From NCBI GenBank assembly GCA_020721945.1, contig DYLT01000012.1, positions 1 through 35,114 on the forward strand: a stretch of DNA of 35,114 nt, written 5' to 3'. The notes under the pieces are model-generated. The model saw nothing but the letters and a program-made list of their open reading frames with translations, made no database searches and was not told the DNA's origin. This DNA comes from Blastopirellula marina. Lineage in GTDB: Bacteria > Planctomycetota > Planctomycetia > Pirellulales > Thermoguttaceae. This document shows positions 3,319 through 31,824 of this stretch, piece by piece. The position numbers were made by a program, and so were the translations under genes. Position 1 is the first letter of the stretch. Each line of letters opens with the position of its first letter.

Positions 3319-3400
3319 CCCGCCGCCGCGCTCGCGGCGACAACATCGTGGCGATCGGGCGATGTAGCCCCGGCTACCCCGATGGAGGATGGTGTTTGCC

Positions 3401-5047
3401 ATGACCATGCGAACCACGAACCGATGGGCTCTTGCGATCCTCGTGCTGGCGGCCGCGCGGGCGGGCGCCCAAACCGTCGGCGACGCGCCGAAAGCGATTC
3501 CCACCTTCCATTGTCTGGGCCTTTACTGGTCGCCGCCCGGCGGGGCCGCTGACAAGGAAGTGCTCGTTCGCTATCGTCCCCAGGGCGATCGCACGTGGAA
3601 CGAAGCCCTGCCCATGCGATACAACCCCATTCCGGGCACCGACGAAGACCTGGCCGACTACCGCGGGAGCATCGTCCGTCTCGCCCCCGGCACGACCTAC
3701 GAAGTCGAGTTGTCGCTGGCCGGCACGTCGACCAAGGCGCGCTGGACCGCGTCGACCTGGAGCGAGCGTTTTCCCATCGGCCAGACGGTTCGCGTGGCCG
3801 ACCGCGACACGCCGCTGGTGCTCCGCGAGTCGGGCACGCCCGGCGCGTACCGCCTCTACGACGGCCGCGGGGCAACGATCGACGTCGGGCACCGCCACGA
3901 CCAGTGCGTTACGATCGACGCCTCGTACGTGATCCTGCGAGGATTGACGCTCAAGGGGGCCGGGGTGGGCGAACCGAGTCGCGGCAGGCCCTTGGGCGCT
4001 GTCCAGATCGACGGCGGACACGACATCGTGATCGAAGATTGCGACATCTCCGACTGGGGCCGGCGCCATCCCGAAACCGGCTTCGGCCGCGATTACGACT
4101 CGGCCATCTTCTCGCGCAGCCGGACCCTCGAACGCCTGATCGTCCAGCGCTGCAAGCTGCACCATCCCCGCTGGACCACGAACCCTTGGGACGAACGGTT
4201 TGACCGCCACACGACCGGCCCCCAGTGCATTTCCCTATTCGATACGGCCGGCAACCATGTGATCCGCTATAACGAGTGCTGGTCGGACCTGGATCACATG
4301 TACAACGACGGCATCGGCGGCGGCAGCAACGGCAGTTTCCGCGGCGCGCCCGGGCCCGATTCCGACATCTACGGAAACCTGGTCAGCCACTGCTGGGACG
4401 ACGGCCTGGAGGTCGAAGGCGGCAGCCGCAATGTGCGCGTCTGGGGAAACTACATCACGCAGACCCTCATGGCCATCGGCAACGCCGCGGGCTCGATCGG
4501 GCCGTTGTACATCTGGGAGAACGTGGCCGGCCGCAGCCAGCGCGATCGCGACGCGGTGGGCTTGAATTTCCTGAAGATGGGCTATGCCGGCGGCGAGCAG
4601 TGGATGACGGGACACATGTACATTTTCCACAACACCATCTTCCGTGAGGACGATTGGCTGCCCCAAGGCGGCCTCGGCGGCGATCGCATCGTCAAGCACG
4701 TGGTCTCGCGCAACAACATCCTCCACGTGCGATCCCCAACGGGCCCCAGTGCCAGCAGCCACCGCCAGAACATCGACAACGACTTCGACTACGATCTCTA
4801 CCGCGGCAGGGTGCCCGAGGGCCACGAGGCGCACGGCGTGCGCGGCGAACCGGTCTACGCGGCCGGGTCGGGATTCGATCCGGCAACCAGGACTGGTCAC
4901 TTCCAACTGGCGCCCTCGAGTCCCGGCGCCGGCGCGGGCGTGGCGATTCCCAATTTCACCAGCGACTTTTCGGGCCCCGCGCCCGACATCGGCGCCCACC
5001 AGCGCGGCGCGCCGCCGTTGCGATTCGGCGTAGCGGCCGGGCCGTAG
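3401..5047 (+). CDS. Secreted right-handed beta-helix protein with N-terminal FN3-like domain
   Basis: The precursor is 548 residues. MRTTNRWALAILVLAAARAGA followed by Q is a Sec signal peptide. Residues about 30-120 look like a fibronectin-type-III-like beta sandwich (EVLVRYRPQGDRTWNE, later LAPGTTYEVELSLAG). From about 125 a parallel beta-helix follows, with repeating coils of the type YVILRGLTLKG, HDIVIEDCDISDWG, LIVQRCKLHH, HVIRYNECWSD, SDIYGNLVSHCWDDG and NVRVWGNYITQT. The end, SDFSGPAPDIGAHQRG, matches the DIGA(H/Y) closing motif common in such proteins. Beta-helices of this kind include polysaccharide lyases and glycosidases, but no catalytic set can be named here. GGAGG at 3384-3388 serves ATG 3401 with a 12-base spacing; ATG 3389 touches the site and ATG 3407 is further away. 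Confidence 0.85.
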   Translation: MTMRTTNRWALAILVLAAARAGAQTVGDAPKAIPTFHCLGLYWSPPGGAADKEVLVRYRPQGDRTWNEALPMRYNPIPGTDEDLADYRGSIVRLAPGTTYEVELSLAGTSTKARWTASTWSERFPIGQTVRVADRDTPLVLRESGTPGAYRLYDGRGATIDVGHRHDQCVTIDASYVILRGLTLKGAGVGEPSRGRPLGAVQIDGGHDIVIEDCDISDWGRRHPETGFGRDYDSAIFSRSRTLERLIVQRCKLHHPRWTTNPWDERFDRHTTGPQCISLFDTAGNHVIRYNECWSDLDHMYNDGIGGGSNGSFRGAPGPDSDIYGNLVSHCWDDGLEVEGGSRNVRVWGNYITQTLMAIGNAAGSIGPLYIWENVAGRSQRDRDAVGLNFLKMGYAGGEQWMTGHMYIFHNTIFREDDWLPQGGLGGDRIVKHVVSRNNILHVRSPTGPSASSHRQNIDNDFDYDLYRGRVPEGHEAHGVRGEPVYAAGSGFDPATRTGHFQLAPSSPGAGAGVAIPNFTSDFSGPAPDIGAHQRGAPPLRFGVAAGP

Positions 5048-7396: not shown

Positions 7397-9919
7397 TCAG
7401 CGCAGCTCGACCCGATCTTCCCCCCGCGAGACCACGTCGACAAGGCGTCCGTCCACGAGAATCTGGTACTTCCGTCCGGCCTGACCGCGGATCACCGCGT
7501 GGCCGTCGCGGATCGTCACGGGGAAGGGCGCCGCCACGCGGTGTTTCCCCTCGGTGGCGACCGCGAGGTAGTCGACCTGGCCGTCGAGCACCAGGCGCAG
7601 GCTGACCAGCGCGCACGGGTTGATTCGCCACGGGTTGCGCGTCTGGGTGGCCAGCGTCACCGAGTCGGGGAGCAACCCGGCCCAAGGACCGTCGGGAAAC
7701 TGCTGCTGTTCGGCGGAGAGGAGGATACCGCGCGCCAGGTGGTTCCAATCGAGCGACTTGTCGTGCGGGGCGAGCATGGTCAGGGCGTAGGCATAGACCC
7801 CGCCGACCCATTGCACGGGCAGCCCGATCCACACCGGAGCCTCCCAGTTCGTCGCACCGAAGACCGGGGGCGTGGCGTAGCGCATGATCGGGTAGCGTCC
7901 CCACAGGTACACGAACGGAATGCCCGAAAGGGCCCAACGCCGCGCCTCGGCCAGGTACTCCTTCTTGCCCGACAGCTCGAAGCCGCGCACGTAGGCCCAG
8001 ACGGCGTAGGCCGAGGCCAACTGGTCGGGCGTGTGGAGCGGGATCTCCCAGACCTGGGCGCCGCGGGGCACGTCGAACCGCTTCATGTAGTCGAGCGTGC
8101 GCAGGCCGGCCTCGAGGGCCTTGGGGTCGCCCGTCAACCGCGCGTGCTCCAACAGGAGGGCCGCCGGCCTGGCGCACACGCCGTTGGCCGTGTCCTCGAA
8201 GTGTCCCTTGGCGAATGGGCCGTGGTAGCGGTACGACCCGTCGGGCCGCTGCTGCGCGATGAGGCCCTTCGCCTGCTCGTCGTGCCGGGCCTTCCACTCG
8301 GCCGCGCGGCCGGTCACGAAGTAGATCGACTCGTTCGTCACGTGCGATCCGCCGGGTACCAGCCGCGGCATCTCGGGGATCTTGCCCGTCAGTCGCCAGA
8401 CCGTCGAACCCATGTCGGCAAAGGGATGGCGCGGCCAGTGGTCCTCGGCGCAGTGGCCCCAGCCCGCCTCGGTCTTCAGCGGTGGGCCGCTGAGGGCCTT
8501 CAAACACAGGGCCCATTGCGCTTCGACCGTGCGCGGCGGCTTGGGCAGCGGCGGCAAACCGTGCTTCGCCACGGCCCAGGCGATCGTCTCTTCGACCGGC
8601 AACCGATCGACCAACAGGGTCGTTTCGATCTTCGTGCCGCGCAAGGCCATGCGGTGGTCGCTCGTGCCGTCGAAGAAGTTCGGCGTGGCGAAGAGGGGCT
8701 CAAGCGCCATGTCGGTCCACGTCATCGCCACGGCGGCCCGGTCCGAGACGAGCGACGCCAAGGGCAGCGTGATGTGCAGCGGGTCGGGGGCATAGCGCAG
8801 GTGCTTGGGTGGATTGGCGTCCAGAGGCGACGAGCTGGCGTCGCCTTTACCCAGGTACTCGACGCCCGCCAGCACGCCCCCCTGGAAGGCGCCCAGCACG
8901 CGCACGACCGGTCCTTCGCACGGTTTGGCCGCAACGATCGAAATCGAAACCTCCTTGCCGGCGGTCGAAATCGAAAGCCTTACGCCGTCGCCTTCGAAGC
9001 CAAGCGAGGGCGTCTCTTGCGCGAGGCGCAGTGCCGGCACCTTGCCCTCGCAATGCACTGTCGGGGCCAGCGCCGCGGCCACCACCTCCCCGCGGCGAAC
9101 GCGGGCCGTCGAGCCGTCGCGGGCAACCTCCAGGGTGAACTCGCCCAGCGGCCGGGAAAGCCAATCGGCCTTGGCTTCGGGATGGACGACGAAAATCGTC
9201 CGGCGGACCGGCGGAAGGTCACGCCCCAGGGCCACGACCTCGATCGTGATCGCCTCCATCGGCTTGGTGGCGTCGGTCGCCTGCTCGACCGTCACGCTGG
9301 CCTGGGCCGGCGCCTGGTACGATCTGCCGAACGCCGAGAATTCGATCGGCTCGTCGGCGTGGTTGCGCACGACGAAGCGCGCTTGCGGGCCGTCGGCACC
9401 GACGGCTTCGATCTCCAGAGGATGCAACGGCCGGCGCACCAGCCGAATCCAGTCGATTTCGACCACGCCGGGGCCCGTCCCCGGATCCAGACGCACGTCG
9501 CGGAGCCTGCCCTGGGCCGAGAAAACAACCTCGCACTCGTGCCAGGCTCCATCGTGCCAGAGGGAAAAGCCCTGCGATTGCGCTCGGCTGCGCCCGGGAG
9601 CGCAATCGGTTGTCCAGAACACCTGGCCCCGGCCCCCGGCCCGGCAACGAACCCGCATCTGCAAGACCAACTCGCCGCCTGGCAGATCGACGGCGCGGTG
9701 GAAGTGGGGATCGTTCCCCTCGGTCTTGATCCTCAAGAGTCCCCCCTCGGCCGCCAACGCGCATTGGTGTTCGGCCGTCCAACCTTCGGTCGTCTTGTCG
9801 AAAGACCAGCGGGCGATCTCGACCTCGGCGAGCGTGGCCCGGGGAACGGGGTTGATCTGGGGCGCCGAAAGGCTGGCCGCGCCCACAAGAACCAGCGGCA
9901 GGGCGAAGAGGCTGGACAT
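7397..9919 (-). CDS. Large secreted protein of unknown family: beta-sandwich N-terminus and helical-toroid C-terminus
   Basis: The protein has 840 residues. It starts with a signal peptide (MSSLFALPLVLVGAASLSA). Residues about 35-165 read like a jelly-roll module (ARWSFDKTTEGWTAEH, GELVLQMRVRCRAG, VVEIDWIRLVRRP). The middle, about 170-440, is beta-rich. From about 470 to 780 helical repeats dominate (WRLTGKIPEMPRL, GRAAEWKARHDEQAKGL, RPAALLLEHARLTGDPKAL, QLASAYAVWAYVRGFELSG), with many aromatic and acidic residues as in (alpha/alpha)6-toroid carbohydrate enzymes. A short beta tail (GRKYQILVDGRLVDVV) closes it. I recognise no named family. A polysaccharide-degrading role is inferred from architecture only. 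GGAAG (9930-9926) lies six bases before ATG 9919. The unit is monocistronic and divergent from purA. Confidence 0.8.
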   Translation of the reverse strand: MSSLFALPLVLVGAASLSAPQINPVPRATLAEVEIARWSFDKTTEGWTAEHQCALAAEGGLLRIKTEGNDPHFHRAVDLPGGELVLQMRVRCRAGGRGQVFWTTDCAPGRSRAQSQGFSLWHDGAWHECEVVFSAQGRLRDVRLDPGTGPGVVEIDWIRLVRRPLHPLEIEAVGADGPQARFVVRNHADEPIEFSAFGRSYQAPAQASVTVEQATDATKPMEAITIEVVALGRDLPPVRRTIFVVHPEAKADWLSRPLGEFTLEVARDGSTARVRRGEVVAAALAPTVHCEGKVPALRLAQETPSLGFEGDGVRLSISTAGKEVSISIVAAKPCEGPVVRVLGAFQGGVLAGVEYLGKGDASSSPLDANPPKHLRYAPDPLHITLPLASLVSDRAAVAMTWTDMALEPLFATPNFFDGTSDHRMALRGTKIETTLLVDRLPVEETIAWAVAKHGLPPLPKPPRTVEAQWALCLKALSGPPLKTEAGWGHCAEDHWPRHPFADMGSTVWRLTGKIPEMPRLVPGGSHVTNESIYFVTGRAAEWKARHDEQAKGLIAQQRPDGSYRYHGPFAKGHFEDTANGVCARPAALLLEHARLTGDPKALEAGLRTLDYMKRFDVPRGAQVWEIPLHTPDQLASAYAVWAYVRGFELSGKKEYLAEARRWALSGIPFVYLWGRYPIMRYATPPVFGATNWEAPVWIGLPVQWVGGVYAYALTMLAPHDKSLDWNHLARGILLSAEQQQFPDGPWAGLLPDSVTLATQTRNPWRINPCALVSLRLVLDGQVDYLAVATEGKHRVAAPFPVTIRDGHAVIRGQAGRKYQILVDGRLVDVVSRGEDRVELR

Positions 9920-9964
9920 CGGTATCTTCCAACAAACCGGTCAGGAAAACAGGCAGGACCGTCG

Positions 9965-9993
9965 ATTGTCGGGCAAGGCCGGTTCGGTGTCAA
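9965..9993 (-). promoter_or_regulatory. Promoter of the 840-residue secreted protein gene
   Basis: On the minus strand a perfect TTGACA (9993-9988), 17 bases, then GACAAT (9970-9965). The leader would be about 40 bases long. Confidence 0.6.
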
Positions 9994-10067
9994 CGCGGCG
10001 CTGGGCGACCGGTGGCCGCGCGGTTTCGATCTGCGGGTCGAGCGATTCGCCCCCGCCGCCGGCGCGC

Positions 10068-10097
10068 TTGACGATCCCCCACGCGCCCTGTTAGACT
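10068..10097 (+). promoter_or_regulatory. Promoter of purA-uppS
   Basis: TTGACG (10068-10073), 18 bases, TAGACT (10092-10097). Transcription would start near 10104, about 60 bases before the GTG start of purA. Confidence 0.6.
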
Positions 10098-10163
10098 CAT
10101 TTGCTTGGGAAGTGGTCGCCCGATTCGGCTGGGCGGCCGGGACCGGTGTGGAGGGTTCGTGTC

Positions 10164-11456
10164 GTGCCAGGAACCAGCGTCATCGGCCTCCAGTGGGGCG
10201 ACGAGGCCAAGGGTAAGATTGTGGACCTGCTTACGGAGGAGCACGACATCGTCGTTCGCTATCAGGGGGGGGCGAACGCCGGGCACACCGTGGTCACGGG
10301 GGGACAGACCTTCAAGTTGTCGCTCATCCCCAGCGGGATCTTCCGGCCGCAGGTGCAGTGCGTGGTGGCGGCCGGCGTGGTGCTCAATCCCGCGAGTCTG
10401 TTGGACGAGATCGGCCAGCTCGAGTCTCGCGGCGTCCGCGTGGGAAAGAACCTCTTGATCAGCGACCGCGCCCACGTGATCTTCCCCTGGCACTTCGAGG
10501 AGGACCGGCTTCTGAACGAGCGATGCCCCGGCGGCGAGGCCATCGGCACCACGCTGCGCGGCATCGGCCCGTGCTACCGCGACAAGGTGGGGCGGTCGTG
10601 GGCGGTGCGGTTGGGCGACCTGTACCGCGACGACTTCCCGCAGCGAGTGGAGCAGATCGCTCGGGCGAAAAACGCCATGCTGGCCGGCTTTCAGGAGGTC
10701 CAAGCCCCCGCGACCCTCGATGCCGAGGCGATCTGCACCCAGTACCGCGCCCATGCCGAACGTCTGCGCCCCCACGTGGCCGACACCACGGCCTTCTTGC
10801 TCGACGCGGCCGAGGCCGGCCGGCGCATCCTGTTCGAGGGAGCCCAAGGGGCCTTGCTCGACGTGGATCATGGCACCTTCCCCTTCGTCACCAGTAGCAA
10901 CAGCTCGGGGGTGGGTGTATCGAGCGGCTCGGGGGTACCGGGTCGGTACATCAATCGGGTGGTCGGCGTTGTCAAGGCGTACACCACGCGGGTAGGCGGA
11001 GGGCCGTTTCCGACCGAGCAGGACAACGAGACGGGCGATCATATCCGCCGGCGCGGCAACGAATACGGCACCGTGACGCGGCGCCCCCGGCGGTGCGGGT
11101 GGTTCGACGCGGTGGCGGCCCGATACACCGCCCGGCTCAGCGGCGCCGACGTGCTGGCCGTCATGCTCCTCGACGTGCTCTGCGAACTGCCCGAACTGAA
11201 AATCTGCGTGGCCTACGAACTCGATGGCCGGCGCACCACCGACTTCCCCAGCCATGCCGACGACTTGCGGCGCGTCACGCCGGTCTACGAGACGCTGCCT
11301 GGCTGGCAGCAGGAGATCAGCGACGTGCGTCGCTACCACGACCTGCCCACGAAATGCCGCGCCTATCTCGAGCGGCTCAGCGGCCTGGTGGGCCGGCCCA
11401 TCGACATCGTCTCCGTGGGACCGGATCGGCAGCAAACGATCTTCGTCCGGAGTTGA
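10164..11456 (+). CDS. purA: Adenylosuccinate synthetase PurA
   Basis: PurA joins IMP and aspartate with GTP to form adenylosuccinate, the first committed step to AMP. The 430-residue protein is full length. [11 protein letters not shown] near residues 8-18 is the phosphate-binding loop with the catalytic aspartate, GGANAGHTV holds the catalytic histidine, [14 protein letters not shown] and [15 protein letters not shown](F)PFVTSS are hallmark blocks, and GEPFPTE of other species reads GGPFPTE here. I chose GTG 10164 ([10 protein letters not shown] follows) because GGAGGG at 10150-10155 sits eight bases upstream; a longer frame to 10101 would use TTG without a site. uppS starts 13 bases after the stop, so the two are probably cotranscribed. 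Confidence 0.98.
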
Positions 11457-11469
11457 CCGGCGTCCGGCC

Positions 11470-12240
11470 ATGGCTGAACCGCCCCTTGCACTTCCCGATG
11501 ACCTGAGCGATGTTCCCAAACCCCGGCGGCCGCGGCACATCGCGGTGATCATGGACGGCAACGGACGTTGGGCCCAGCGCCGCGGCCTGCCGCGCATCGA
11601 GGGCCATCGACGCGGCGTGGCCAGCGTCCGGCGCGTCACGGCGGAGTGCTCCCGGCTGGGCATCGAACAACTGACGCTCTACTGCCTCTCGAGCGAGAAT
11701 TGGAAGCGTCCGCAAGAGGAATTGGACTTCCTGATGCGCCTGCTCGAGCAGTACATGGTCGAAGAACGCGGGACGATCCGCGACCGGAACATCCGCCTGG
11801 CCGTGATCGGTCAGCGCGAGGGCATCCCCGCCGACGCCCTGCGCGAGATGGACAAGACGATCGCCATGAGCCGCGACAACACCGGCCTGACGCTCTGCCT
11901 GGCGATCAACTACGGCGGCCGCGCGGAACTGGTCGACGCGGTGCGGGCCATTACGCGGCGCGTCCAGGCTGGCGAACTCCAGCCCGATCAGGTGACCGAA
12001 GCGGTCGTGTCCGCCCACCTCTACACCTCGGGTATGCCCGACCCCGACCTGCTCATCCGCACCGCCAGCGAAATGCGCGTGAGCAATTTCCTCTTGTGGC
12101 AGATCAGCTACGCCGAACTCTGGGTCACCGACCTGTGTTGGCCCGACTTCGATGAACGGCAGCTCCATGCGGCGATCCGTTCGTTTGCCTCGCGCGACCG
12201 TCGCTTCGGCGGATTGGCACGCCCGGCCTTCCCCAAATAG
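11470..12240 (+). CDS. uppS: Isoprenyl transferase (undecaprenyl diphosphate synthase)
   Basis: This cis-prenyltransferase extends farnesyl diphosphate with isopentenyl units to make the C55 lipid carrier for cell-envelope glycan assembly. The protein has 256 residues, a normal length. HIAVIMDGNGRWAQRRGL (23-40) contains the Mg-binding aspartate D29; LTLYCLSSENWKRP, the LCLAINYGGRAELVDA block and RTASEMRVSNFLLWQ with the following YAELW are all present. The usual RTSGE reads RTASE here. ATG 11470 lies 13 bases after the purA stop, and no strong ribosome-binding site is seen in that gap, which points to coupling with purA. In many bacteria uppS is followed by cdsA; here a secreted glycosidase-like gene follows. 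Confidence 0.97.
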   Translation: MAEPPLALPDDLSDVPKPRRPRHIAVIMDGNGRWAQRRGLPRIEGHRRGVASVRRVTAECSRLGIEQLTLYCLSSENWKRPQEELDFLMRLLEQYMVEERGTIRDRNIRLAVIGQREGIPADALREMDKTIAMSRDNTGLTLCLAINYGGRAELVDAVRAITRRVQAGELQPDQVTEAVVSAHLYTSGMPDPDLLIRTASEMRVSNFLLWQISYAELWVTDLCWPDFDERQLHAAIRSFASRDRRFGGLARPAFPK

Positions 12241-12378: not shown

Positions 12379-14724
12379 ATGGCGCTCGACCGGCCAGGAC
12401 GGTTCCTCGCGCGGCGATGGGGCATGGCGGCGGCACTGGTCGTCTCGGGACTCGTGTGCGTGGCCGGACGACCGCTCTGGGCCGCGTCGTCCTCCGGTGC
12501 GCCCACGAGGATCTCGCTGGTCGGCAAGGCTCTGCGTCTGGACTTCGATGGCCGCGACGGCAGCTTGCTTCAAGTCCACGATCCTGTCGCGAACCGCGAC
12601 CACCTCGACTTGGCCTCTGCGCCCGTTGGGCTGTGGCGATTTCGGGCCGGCGCGTCGGGAAGCACCGTCGACCTCGTGCCGCGTCACGCCAAGGCGTTTC
12701 GCGCCGACCTTGCGGATGCGCAAGCGAAGCGAGTCCTTCGGCTGGTCTGGAGCGGATTTGGCCTCGCGCTGGCGCCCGAGCTGGCGATCGAGGTGGTGGT
12801 CGGGCTTGACGGGCGAGGTTCGACGAGCGATTGGGACTTTGCGGTCCGTAACCCGGCCGGGCTGGTGCCCCAGGAAATCCACTTTCCCGTGTTGCCGGCC
12901 ATAGCCCGACAGGAGAACGAGCGCCTGGCCGTTCCCCACTGGATGGGCGAGGTGGCCGCCGATCCGCGCAATCGCCTGGCCGCCCGCCCAGGGCGGCGCT
13001 TCGCGTGGCATTATCCCGGCGAGCTGTCGATGCAGTGGATGGCCTGGTATGGCCAGGAGGGCCCCGGGCTGGATGTGGCCTGCGACGACACGAAAGCGCG
13101 CCGCAAGGGCGTGGCCGTCTGGAGCGGCGCCGACAACCAGGTGCATCTCGAGGTGTTGCACTGGCCCGAGCAAAAACCCGCAACCGGCGACCCTTGGACC
13201 TTCGGCTACCAGGTGCGCCTCGGCGTGTTTTCTGGCGACTGGTTTGCCGCGGCCCAGCGGTATCGGGCGTGGGCCATCGAGCAACCCTGGACCCGCCAAA
13301 GCCGGCTTGCCCGGGGACTCGTGCCCCCTTGGGTTCAGGACACCGCCCTGTGGGTATGGAACCGCGGGCGTTCGCCGCAGGTGCTTGGCCCGGCTGGCGC
13401 GCTGCGCCGGGAACTCGGTTTGCCGGTGAGCGTGTTCTGGCACTGGTGGCACGGGTGCGCGTACGACACGGGCTTTCCCGAGTACCTTCCGCCGCGCGAA
13501 GGGACCGAGGCCTTTCGCCGCGCTGTGGCCGAGGCGCATCGCGGGGGGTTGCACGCGATGGTGTATATGAACCAGCGTCTGTGGGGCATGACCACGCGGA
13601 GTTGGTCCGACGAGAACGCGGCCCGCTTCGCCGTCAAAGGCCCCGATGGAACGATCCGGCCCGAGGTCTACAACACGTTCACCCGCCAGGCCTGTGCCTC
13701 GATGTGCATGGGCACCTCGTTCTGGCGGGAGAAGTACGCGGGGCTGGCCGAGCAGGCGTGGCGCGACTTGGGCATCGACGCGATCTACATGGACCAGGCG
13801 TGCAGCAGCCTAGCCTGCCACGACCCCAGCCACGGGCATCCGCTCGGGGGCGGAACCTACTGGATCGAGGGCTTCCAGGCCCTGGCCGCCGATCTGCGCC
13901 GGCGCTGCGGGGCCCCGCGGCCGATCGCCCTGGCGGGTGAAGGATGCGGCGAGGCCTGGCTGCCGCACCTGGACCTCATGCTCACGCTTCAGGTCAGCCG
14001 CGAGCGCTACGCGGCCATCGGCGACGGCTGGGAACCGGCCCCGCTGTTCCACGCGGTCTACCATCCTTACGCGGTGCTGTATGGGAACTACTCGTCGCTC
14101 ACCGTGCCGCCGTACGACGACCTCTGGCCTGGGGAACACGCCCCCAAAGAGCCCTTGGCGCTTTTGGATCGCAAGTTCTCGCGACAGTTCGCCCTGGAAC
14201 AGGCCCGCGCGTTCGTCTGGGGCCAGCAGCCGACGATCGCCAACTTCGTGCCCTCGCATCGGGTGGACCGGGCCGAGGACATGGATTACGTCGTCCGGCT
14301 TGCGCGCACGCGCCGCCACGCCTTGAAATACCTGGCCCAGGGCACCATGCTCCGAGCCCCGGCGCTCGACGTGCCCTTGATCGACATCGACTTCTCGCGA
14401 CTGTCGATCTACGCGGGCCAGGGCGATCGGGTGCGCGCGTTCCGCAAGGCCGTGCCGGCCGCGGTGTGCGCCGCCTGGCGCGCTCCGGATGGCGACGTGG
14501 CGATCGCCCTGGCAAGCATCGCGGACGAACCGGTCGAGGTGACCGTGCGCCTCGGCGGCGACGATGCGCGTGGCCTGCCGCCAGCGCCGGCGTACCGGAT
14601 CGACGCGACGGGCCGCCGCCGGCTCGATGCGCCGAGCGCGGCCGGGACGCCCTGGAGGTTCGCGCTGCCGCCCCGCGCATGCTGGGTCTTGGAGCTGCCC
14701 GCGGCACGCCCGGCGAGGTCTTGA
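12379..14724 (+). CDS. Secreted DUF6259-like glycoside hydrolase candidate
   Basis: The precursor has 781 residues. An arginine-rich start followed by WGMAAALVVSGLVCVAG and WAASS gives a cleavable export signal. Residues about 40-300 form a beta-sandwich typical of GH-clan N-terminal domains (LRLDFDGRDGSLLQVHDP, RFAWHYPGELSMQWMAWYGQ). A TIM barrel follows from about 310: LPVSVFWHWWHGC, HAMVYMNQRLWG, LGIDAIYMDQACSS with D472, and ALAGEGCGEAWLPHLDL with E521. D472 and E521 are my candidates for catalytic residues, by position at barrel strand ends (inference). A C-terminal beta domain ends VLELPA. The layout matches DUF6259 proteins and, more distantly, alpha-galactosidase-like families; the substrate is unknown. 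AAAGGGGG at 12367-12374 precedes ATG 12379. Confidence 0.78.
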   Translation: MALDRPGRFLARRWGMAAALVVSGLVCVAGRPLWAASSSGAPTRISLVGKALRLDFDGRDGSLLQVHDPVANRDHLDLASAPVGLWRFRAGASGSTVDLVPRHAKAFRADLADAQAKRVLRLVWSGFGLALAPELAIEVVVGLDGRGSTSDWDFAVRNPAGLVPQEIHFPVLPAIARQENERLAVPHWMGEVAADPRNRLAARPGRRFAWHYPGELSMQWMAWYGQEGPGLDVACDDTKARRKGVAVWSGADNQVHLEVLHWPEQKPATGDPWTFGYQVRLGVFSGDWFAAAQRYRAWAIEQPWTRQSRLARGLVPPWVQDTALWVWNRGRSPQVLGPAGALRRELGLPVSVFWHWWHGCAYDTGFPEYLPPREGTEAFRRAVAEAHRGGLHAMVYMNQRLWGMTTRSWSDENAARFAVKGPDGTIRPEVYNTFTRQACASMCMGTSFWREKYAGLAEQAWRDLGIDAIYMDQACSSLACHDPSHGHPLGGGTYWIEGFQALAADLRRRCGAPRPIALAGEGCGEAWLPHLDLMLTLQVSRERYAAIGDGWEPAPLFHAVYHPYAVLYGNYSSLTVPPYDDLWPGEHAPKEPLALLDRKFSRQFALEQARAFVWGQQPTIANFVPSHRVDRAEDMDYVVRLARTRRHALKYLAQGTMLRAPALDVPLIDIDFSRLSIYAGQGDRVRAFRKAVPAAVCAAWRAPDGDVAIALASIADEPVEVTVRLGGDDARGLPPAPAYRIDATGRRRLDAPSAAGTPWRFALPPRACWVLELPAARPARS

Positions 14725-29410: not shown

Positions 29411-29440
29411 TTGACAGGTGCGTGCCAACGGCCGTAGGAT
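29411..29440 (+). promoter_or_regulatory. Promoter of the GH127 gene
   Basis: A perfect TTGACA (29411-29416), 18 bases, TAGGAT (29435-29440), the same hexamer pair as thiC. Transcription would start near 29447, about 59 bases before ATG 29506. Confidence 0.7.
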
Positions 29441-29505
29441 CGACGGTCACCTCGGTTCGCAGGGGCTTGGCACCCTACGAGTTGGGCGATCTTAAGGAGC
29501 ATTCG

Positions 29506-31824
29506 ATGCGCGGGTCGCGATCGGTCGTTGCGGGTTTTCTGCTGGTTCTTCTCGTTGCCGCGTTGGGTAGCCGGCGCGCGGTCCTCGCCGAGGTCCGGCA
29601 AGTCGTGCCTCGAGCCGCCGAGCCCTTCCCGCTCACGCAGGTGAGGCTGCTCGATGGGCCGTTCCAACACGCGATGGAACTCGACCGCAAGTACCTGTTG
29701 AGCCTCGACCCCGACCGGTTGTTGCACAACTTTCGCACGAACGCGGGCTTGCCCTCGACGGCCAAGCCTCTGGGGGGCTGGGAAGAACCGAAGTGCGAGG
29801 TCCGAGGGCACAGCCTCGGCCATTTCCTCTCGGCCTCGGCGATGATGTACGCCAGCACCGGCGACGAGCGGCTTCGGCAGAAGGCCGCGTACACGGTCGC
29901 CGAACTGGCCAAATGCCAGGCGCAGTTTCCCTCCGGCTATTTGAGCGCCTTCCCCGAGAGTTTCATCGAGCGCGTCGAGGCGGGCAAGCCGGTCTGGGCC
30001 CCGTGGTACACGTTGCACAAGATCTACGCGGGGCTGCTGGATGTCTATGGGCTTTGCGATAACCGCCAGGCCCTCGAGGTGCTCGAAAAGGCGGTGGCAT
30101 GGATTCAATCGCGAACCGACAAGCTCAGCGACGCCCAGATGGAGAGGATGCTGGGCAACGAGCACGGCGGCATGAACGACGTGCTGGCCGAGTTGGCGGC
30201 GGTCACCGGCAAGGAGTCCTATCTGCGGCTTTCTCGGCGGTTCAACCACCACGCGGTCCTCGATCCCCTGGCCAAACGCCAGGACCGGCTTACCGGCCTC
30301 CACGCGAACACCCAGTTCCCCAAGATCCTCGGCGCGGCCCGGCAGTACGAGTTGACCGGCTGGGCCGACGGCCGCACCATCGCCACGTTCTTCTGGGATG
30401 TCGTGACCAAGGAGCGTTCGTACGTAACCGGCGGCAATAGCGACGGCGAGGTCTTCAGCCCCAAGGAGGCACTCTCGAAGCACCTCGGTCCTTCGACCAC
30501 CGAGACCTGCAACACCTATAACATGCTCAAGATCACGCGGAGGATCTTCACCTGGGACCCCAAGCCCGAGTACGCCGACTACTACGAGCGGGCCCTGTTG
30601 AACCACATTCTCGCCTCGCAGAACCCCGAGACCGGCATGGTGCTGTACTATATGCCGCTGCGGTCCGGCAGCCAGCGCGTGTTCGGCACGCCCCACGATT
30701 CGTTCTGGTGCTGTACGGGCACGGGCATGGAGAACCACGCGAAGTACGGCGACAGCATCTACTTTCATGGGAAGGACACCCTGTATGTGAATCTGTTCAT
30801 CGCCTCCGAGCTTGCCTGGAAGGACCAGGGGCTGGTGCTGCGCCAGGAGACGAAATTCCCCGAGGCCGACTCGACCCGGCTGGCGTTTACCTGCCAGAAG
30901 CCCGTGGAGCTGGCCCTGCGTCTTCGCCGGCCGTATTGGGCGATCGAGGGATTCGAGGTGGCGCTGAACGGCCAGAAACAGCCGGTCGAGAGCCGGCCAT
31001 CGAGTTACGTCGAGTTGCGGCGCGTGTGGAAGACAGGCGACGTGGTCGAGCTGCGCATGCCCATGAGCCTGCGCACCGAGGGATTCCGCGACGATCCGAA
31101 GAGGCGGGCCGTGTTTTTCGGGCCCGCGCTACTGTGCGCGCCGGTGGTGCCGGGGAAGCCCTTCCCAGTCATCGTTGGCGAGGCGGAGAAGATTCCCTCG
31201 GCGATCGAGCCGGCCGGCAAGCCGCTGGAGTTCCGCGGGTTACCACCGATGTTCCGCTCGGTGGAGGCCGGCGCGGGCGTCGCGGTCGCGCTCGTGCCGT
31301 TCTACAAGGAGTACCAGCGGCCGTATCACGTCTACTGGGACGTGCTCGACGAGGACCAGTGGAAGGCCCGATGCGCCGAGTACCAGGCCGAGGTGGCGCG
31401 CGAGAAGGCCCTCGCAGCCCGGACGGTCGACCGCGTGGTGATCGGCGATCGGGATTCCGAGCGTGCCCACCGTCTCGACGGCCTGCGGCATGCCTCGGGC
31501 CCCTTCGGTGGAAGGCATTGGCGCCACGCGGGCGACGGCTGGTTTTCGTACGAGCTGAAGTCGCTGCCGGACCGGCCGGTGGAAGTCCTTTGCACGTACT
31601 GGGGTAGCGACGTGGGGGCGCGGGTGTTCGACGTCCTGGTCGATGGCACGAAGATCGCCACGCAGAAACTCGACCGGAACAAGCCCGAGTCGTTCTTCGA
31701 TCAGATCTATCCTGTGCCCCCCGAGCTGACCAAGGGCAAGGATAAGATCACGGTCCGGTTCCAGGCCCATCCGGGCAATACCGCGGGCGGCGTGTTCGAT
31801 CTTCGGGTCCTGCGGAAGGAGTGA
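29506..31824 (+). CDS. Secreted GH127-type glycosidase (beta-L-arabinofuranosidase family, DUF1680)
   Basis: The precursor has 772 residues. GFLLVLLVAALGSRRAVLA (10-28) is a signal peptide. The (alpha/alpha)6 catalytic domain spans about 40-440, with LHNFRTNAGLPS, RGHSLGHFLSA, WAPWYTLHKIYAGLLD and GNEHGGMND. Known GH127 enzymes use a cysteine nucleophile held by zinc through three cysteines and a glutamate. The matching residues are E333 and C335 (TTETCNTYNML) and C402-C403 (FWCCTGTGMENHAKYG), and E315 (YVTGGNSDGEVF) fits the acid/base position. Beta domains follow from about 450, and the last 120 residues (HRLDGLRHASGPFGGRHWRH and WFSYELKSLPD) match the DUF6805-type C-terminal domain. It would cleave beta-L-arabinofuranosides of plant-type glycans. 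AAGGAG (29494-29499) lies six bases before ATG 29506. Confidence 0.94.
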   Translation: MRGSRSVVAGFLLVLLVAALGSRRAVLAEVRQVVPRAAEPFPLTQVRLLDGPFQHAMELDRKYLLSLDPDRLLHNFRTNAGLPSTAKPLGGWEEPKCEVRGHSLGHFLSASAMMYASTGDERLRQKAAYTVAELAKCQAQFPSGYLSAFPESFIERVEAGKPVWAPWYTLHKIYAGLLDVYGLCDNRQALEVLEKAVAWIQSRTDKLSDAQMERMLGNEHGGMNDVLAELAAVTGKESYLRLSRRFNHHAVLDPLAKRQDRLTGLHANTQFPKILGAARQYELTGWADGRTIATFFWDVVTKERSYVTGGNSDGEVFSPKEALSKHLGPSTTETCNTYNMLKITRRIFTWDPKPEYADYYERALLNHILASQNPETGMVLYYMPLRSGSQRVFGTPHDSFWCCTGTGMENHAKYGDSIYFHGKDTLYVNLFIASELAWKDQGLVLRQETKFPEADSTRLAFTCQKPVELALRLRRPYWAIEGFEVALNGQKQPVESRPSSYVELRRVWKTGDVVELRMPMSLRTEGFRDDPKRRAVFFGPALLCAPVVPGKPFPVIVGEAEKIPSAIEPAGKPLEFRGLPPMFRSVEAGAGVAVALVPFYKEYQRPYHVYWDVLDEDQWKARCAEYQAEVAREKALAARTVDRVVIGDRDSERAHRLDGLRHASGPFGGRHWRHAGDGWFSYELKSLPDRPVEVLCTYWGSDVGARVFDVLVDGTKIATQKLDRNKPESFFDQIYPVPPELTKGKDKITVRFQAHPGNTAGGVFDLRVLRKE

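Follow-up and report, generated by a model that had tools for sequence, protein, structure and literature searches.

A putative secreted protein of 840 amino acids, encoded on the minus strand (7397..9919) of a 35,114-nucleotide stretch of Blastopirellula marina DNA (contig DYLT01000012.1, here termed the window), is proposed to be a carbohydrate-active enzyme of a family that is undescribed in Pfam, NCBIfam and PDB and that most likely acts by hydrolysis, a reading which we consider about evenly balanced. Searches of the protein against Pfam and NCBIfam yielded no match up to an E-value of 1, those against PDB sequences none up to an E-value of 10, and literature searches retrieved no description of this protein family. 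The protein is a candidate member of an undescribed family on a known fold, although a CAZy family represented in neither Pfam nor PDB could still match. An earlier, sequence-only reading of the locus had likewise recognised no family and had suggested an undescribed carbohydrate-active one, a suggestion that is supported by the present analysis.

The coding sequence extends from an ATG at position 9919 to a stop codon (included) ending at 7397. GC contents of 0.70/0.50/0.87 at the three codon positions of this frame are as expected for a high-GC gene, and comparison with a sister species (L033, a Thermoguttaceae genome encoding a 92% identical protein) revealed 41/29/149 substitutions at codon positions 1/2/3, corresponding to a non-synonymous rate (dN) of 0.038, a synonymous rate (dS) of 0.277 and a dN/dS ratio of 0.14. 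The predicted protein is thus encoded by a real gene, whose strand the sequence-only reading had not given. Based on the same codon-position GC and substitution pattern, a plus-strand open reading frame of 905 amino acids (7499-10216), antisense to the gene, was rejected as a shadow frame; a minus-strand frame upstream of the gene (9990-11663) was dismissed as a shadow of purA.

The domain layout, all on the minus strand, commences with a hydrophobic stretch of about residues 1-19 (9863..9919), a putative signal peptide as proposed earlier, which is also present in most complete relatives. This is followed by a jelly-roll module resembling carbohydrate-binding modules (CBMs; residues 30-165, 9425..9832), an immunoglobulin (Ig)-like beta domain delineated by predicted strands (residues 168-250, 9170..9418), a beta-sandwich (residues 251-440, 8600..9169) bearing the conserved loop G352-x-E354...S362-S-S...D367...R375, an (alpha/alpha) toroid (residues 442-778, 7586..8596) and a C-terminal beta domain (residues 785-840, 7400..7567). 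AlphaFold2 models were built from alignments of seven sequences, which limits them. The core model alone (residues 250-840) reached a predicted local distance difference test (pLDDT) score of 73 and a predicted template modelling (pTM) score of 0.80; it contains the toroid and the C-terminal domain and, at this model confidence, bears out the beta-rich middle and helical toroid that had been read from the sequence. The jelly roll, taken from the full-length model, was shown by VIA superposition to match CBM22, CBM6, CBM29, CBM11 and xylanase CBMs with Z-scores of 13-15, in agreement with the jelly-roll-like N-terminus suggested before, and gave a profile match to a Xyn10A CBM (E-value 0.006). 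In the profile comparison, the Ig-like domain weakly matched designed Ig-like proteins.

With tblastn, 45 of the 99 related genomes gave matches, many of which are full length and 46-92% identical, and members of the family (31-92% identity) were observed in Planctomycetota, Lentisphaerae and Verrucomicrobia, with further matching contigs from Lentisphaerae, Sedimentisphaerales, Pirellulaceae (Rhodopirellula sp.) and Chthoniobacteraceae. A profile search across a phylum sample gave matches in 30 of 294 genomes, some to the jelly roll alone, while the phylum sample around the Chthoniobacteraceae genome gave matches in 8 of 195. No relatives of the 840-aa protein were found in viral contigs, and the plasmid collection yielded a match to the N-terminal CBM-like part alone, on a Natrinema plasmid. 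Alignment of 33 members (A2) revealed 22 invariant columns. Twelve further, distant paralogs correspond to the main clade chiefly in the core (about residues 330-793), where identity is 20-38%, and were resolved into four well-supported clades in a core tree of 45 rows; the source genome itself holds a clade IV paralog (contig C60, L095:2732-5473, minus strand) with a C-terminal jelly roll. Among the paralogs, the jelly roll is located N-terminally, C-terminally, at both ends or is absent, and NPCBM-associated and LamG domains occur as other modules. The movable jelly roll and the sharing of mainly the core indicate that the functional, catalytic unit consists of the beta-sandwich plus toroid, and define the CBM-like domain, as judged from sequence comparison, as a probable accessory and movable module. 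This module, which has no Pfam match, recurs on other proteins, roughly ten times in a single Lentisphaerae genome as well as in several Planctomycetota and on the above-mentioned plasmid, and may warrant a CBM-like family of its own. In one related genome, two family copies are arranged in tandem (G047:C16:23356-28089).

Strong conservation was found to be concentrated on one predicted face of the toroid. By helix order, this face carries the long loops (478-498, 557-579, 613-629, 666-701 and 739-767), and the remaining connections, located opposite, are mostly short. In GH15-type toroids, the long-loop face is the active-site face. Conserved residues in these loops or at helix starts comprise W487, D560-G, R619-G-A-Q-x-W-E625-x-x-L-H629-T-P-D632, Y671-x-W673, W697, Q703-W704 and P751-D752; the distant clades retain most of these. 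They include the D560-G-S motif (8234..8242, minus strand), located in one of the long loops on the predicted active face, of which D560 and G561 are retained in all 12 distant paralogs, and the PRGAQxWExPLHTPD motif (residues 618-632; 8024..8068, minus strand), a candidate catalytic loop with E625, D632, H629 and R619. The earlier reading had pointed to cleft residues as a means of verification, and those between 480 and 760 proved to be conserved among the 33 relatives and largely so in the 12 paralogs. Acidic residues kept across the superfamily are D560, E625, D632, D720 and D752, E625 being replaced by Asp or otherwise altered in the smallest clade. In the sandwich loop, which also carries E354, R375 is invariant in the core alignment (A6), and Y671 is nearly invariant. 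The main clade is characterised by H489, H526, N529 and GHFEDT (572-577), which suggests a role of these residues in substrate specificity. A glycan-binding or cell-envelope protein without catalytic function, in which the toroid fold is retained, would be consistent with a locus that lacks the context of a polysaccharide utilisation locus and has purA as its recurrent neighbour, but is considered a distinctly improbable explanation, as strong conservation is concentrated in long loops of a single predicted toroid face and clades with 20-38% identity still share many charged and aromatic residues.

Structure comparisons are consistent with an enzyme acting on carbohydrates. Foldseek searches with the core returned GH94 as first match, followed by GH139, a GH65-like entry and PL27 (E-values of 1e-7 to 1e-5), and the top two matches in a viral model library were GH65 and GH95 proteins. 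That the GH94, GH139, GH65-like and PL27 matches are all carbohydrate enzymes composed of a sandwich plus toroid, and that the paralogs are modular in the manner of carbohydrate-active enzymes, supports this assignment, and the predicted-structure search proposed with the sequence-only reading accordingly came out in favour of toroidal carbohydrate enzymes. The toroid superposed on GH88, GH76 and AGE epimerases with VIA Z-scores of 13-16 over 250-300 residues, although values near 13 may reflect a common helical arrangement, so that such matches indicate fold class rather than family. An epimerase, isomerase or phosphorylase with a toroid fold, acting on a sugar or uronate (AGE-like, C5-epimerase-like or GH94-like), would agree with the AGE-type epimerases (Z about 13), with the first rank of GH94 phosphorylases and with sub-threshold C5-epim_C matches in 7 of the 33 relatives (PF06662, D-glucuronyl C5-epimerase; 19.4 bits at best, the cut-off being 23.3). 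However, those C5-epim_C matches that were inspected span one 28-residue stretch, and apparent export together with a CBM-like module is ill-suited to soluble-sugar or phosphate-dependent cytoplasmic enzymes, rendering this explanation highly doubtful.

For the favoured reading of a secreted hydrolase, we infer a mechanism in which the CBM-like jelly roll would tether the enzyme to a polysaccharide, and the substrate would enter at the mouth of the (alpha/alpha) toroid, partly capped by the sandwich loop with E354 and R375. The conserved tryptophans W487, W624, W673, W697 and W704 would act as stacking platforms. Cleavage, most likely hydrolytic, would employ a carboxylate of the 613-632 loop as acid (E625, with D632), D560 or D752 being its putative partner, and R375 may hold a carboxylate or sulfate of the substrate.

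The alternative of a polysaccharide lyase resembling PL26 or PL27 was weighed against this mechanism. Here, beta-elimination beside a uronic acid would rely on Y671 or H629 as base, with R375 neutralising the uronate carboxylate. The invariant R375 and nearly invariant Y671 are compatible with such chemistry, as is the finding that the sandwich (residues 250-454) has the middle domain of PL26 as its best structural match (178 residues, 2.9 Å, Z 13.5). Over the whole core, however, 394 residues aligned to PL26 with a root-mean-square deviation of 17 Å, showing that only the sandwich likeness is clear. Moreover, a sequence relation to PL26 is lacking: the PcRGLX Pfam domains PF19501, PF21345 and PF21346 were not found in the protein up to an E-value of 1 and are not listed for the 33 relatives, and hhalign comparison of A2 or A6 with a PL26 alignment gave a probability below 1%. 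Of the distant paralogs, about one in three has furthermore lost H629, whereas the acidic residues mostly persist there. A lyase is deemed unlikely, and a glycoside hydrolase is preferred with modest confidence. The earlier reading had seen a resemblance to lyases and glycosidases alike; the likeness to toroid enzymes holds, while the data do not firmly separate the two activities.

Several observations weigh against a secreted hydrolase of this kind. The full-length model is weak (pLDDT 64, pTM 0.44), and several active-face loops score below 50 in both models, making side-chain placement unreliable. The PDB matches obtained with Foldseek have low template modelling (TM) scores (0.2-0.3). The invariant Arg, nearly invariant Tyr and widely kept His would also serve the needs of a lyase. 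In addition, no conserved transporter, regulator or operon of carbohydrate-active enzymes was found near the gene in the window or in the 24 further loci whose neighbours were compared.

A more specific proposal, which we advance tentatively and at somewhat less than even probability, is that these proteins represent a new CAZy-level family, of at least five clades and perhaps several families, of secreted toroidal enzymes in the planctomycete-verrucomicrobial group, whose substrate would be an acidic polysaccharide and whose catalytic arrangement, E625/D632 with R375, may be one that described toroid enzymes do not use. In those same 25 loci, no polysaccharide utilisation locus from which to name a substrate surrounds the gene. 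Planctomycetes and their relatives break down many complex polysaccharides, with much of the machinery lacking a family name. As roughly one in two of the sampled near relatives carries the family, its candidate catalytic residues are clear and its domain core is stable, expression of one or two members offers a way to look for its activity, and a family model would provide annotation for many proteins that are now nameless.

The gene opens its own transcription unit, divergent from purA (adenylosuccinate synthetase; 10101..11456, plus strand; PF00709, E-value 3e-169), with which it shares an intergenic region. Its sigma-70-like promoter, TTGACA-17-GACAAT (9965..9993, minus strand), lies approximately 45-75 bases upstream and attains a consensus score of 10/12; two promoter-type sites were found in the region against 0.3 expected. 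The promoter, which had already been noticed in the sequence, is kept in the sister species although the adjoining stretch has diverged, supporting its authenticity. A possible ribosome-binding site, GGAAG (9926..9930, minus strand), can be read six bases ahead of the ATG. The divergent purA is present in the window, in the sister species and in four further genomes, as established by comparison, the window copy being the one checked with Pfam. Apart from purA, the one recurrent neighbour, the genes nearby are of housekeeping or mixed type; they include mnmE, rsgA and a GFO/IDH/MocA oxidoreductase, and a MalK-type ABC ATPase is shared by two sister genomes. Elsewhere in the window, a 781-aa protein with a DUF6259 domain (12379-14724, plus strand; E-value 3e-110) is encoded near an undecaprenyl diphosphate synthase gene, with the same neighbours on the sister species contig, and a 552-aa protein (3389-5047, plus strand), possibly another polysaccharide enzyme, exhibits a sub-threshold right-handed beta-helix match (E-value 0.004).

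With regard to known systems, the architecture of the core is as in PMC8377490. The PL26 exo-rhamnogalacturonan lyase PcRGLX (5xq3, 5xqg, 5xqj, 5xqo) likewise consists of a beta-sandwich followed by an (alpha/alpha) toroid, whereas the 840-aa protein carries its CBM-like and Ig-like domains where PL26 has an N-terminal domain of its own. Divergent PL26-like proteins gave hhalign probabilities of 67-70% over 73 columns. Such proteins, encoded at L067, L068, L069, L079, L081 and similar Planctomycetota loci, match PF21346 over the first ~124 positions only and perhaps constitute a further unnamed toroid group. The PL27 L-rhamnose-alpha-1,4-glucuronate lyase BACCELL_00875 (5no8, 5nok) superposed with a VIA Z-score of 14.1 over 260 residues (Foldseek E-value 2e-5), but at about 10% identity and with no PL27 chain among the matches listed by PDB profile searches with A2 or A6.

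GH94, GH65, GH95 and GH139 have the sandwich-then-toroid order in common with the protein and gave the best Foldseek E-values (1e-7 to 1e-4), yet the likeness to GH94, GH65 and GH139 is at a TM score of about 0.2 and is unaccompanied by a Pfam match. The GH95 catalytic domain, PF22124, was not matched up to an E-value of 1 in the protein or its relatives (hhalign 14%). With GH88 unsaturated glucuronyl hydrolase and GH76 mannanase, the toroid alone was matched, at ~4-4.5 Å and 5-16% identity; hhalign gave 39% over 24 columns for GH88, represented by three sequences only, and Pfam gave no match. For GH127, hhalign reached 79% over 133 toroid columns, and PF07944 matched 19 of the 33 relatives below threshold (when inspected singly, no higher than 18.9 bits where the cut-off is 24.9, over short toroid stretches) and did not match the protein up to an E-value of 1. 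The matches of the relatives to PF07944 and PF06662 thus stay below threshold and within the toroid. Neither A2 nor A6 contains Cys in invariant or nearly invariant columns, whereas the GH127 alignment (A7) keeps E289-T-C291 and C358-C359 of the Cys/Glu zinc site. The domain order of GH127 is also reversed relative to that of the 840-aa protein. Membership of PL26, GH127 and GH95 was rejected on the Pfam and hhalign results, and for GH127 also on the missing Cys/Glu site. A GH127-type beta-L-arabinofuranosidase catalytic domain (PF07944, E-value 1e-133 at 29638-30753) is encoded elsewhere in the window (29422-31824, plus strand) by one of several such genes in the source genome.

The beta-1,2-glucanase families GH144, GH162 and GH192-194 (PMC12102758) were not among the sequence or structure matches listed. 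The methylmannose polysaccharide hydrolase MmpH (7qsj) gave a profile match to the core over 97 residues around the DGS motif (E-value 4.6e-5), a likeness confined to one local helical stretch of an enzyme of only 373 residues. Without placing the protein in a named family, these hhalign and profile matches fit descent within the broad toroid superfamily.
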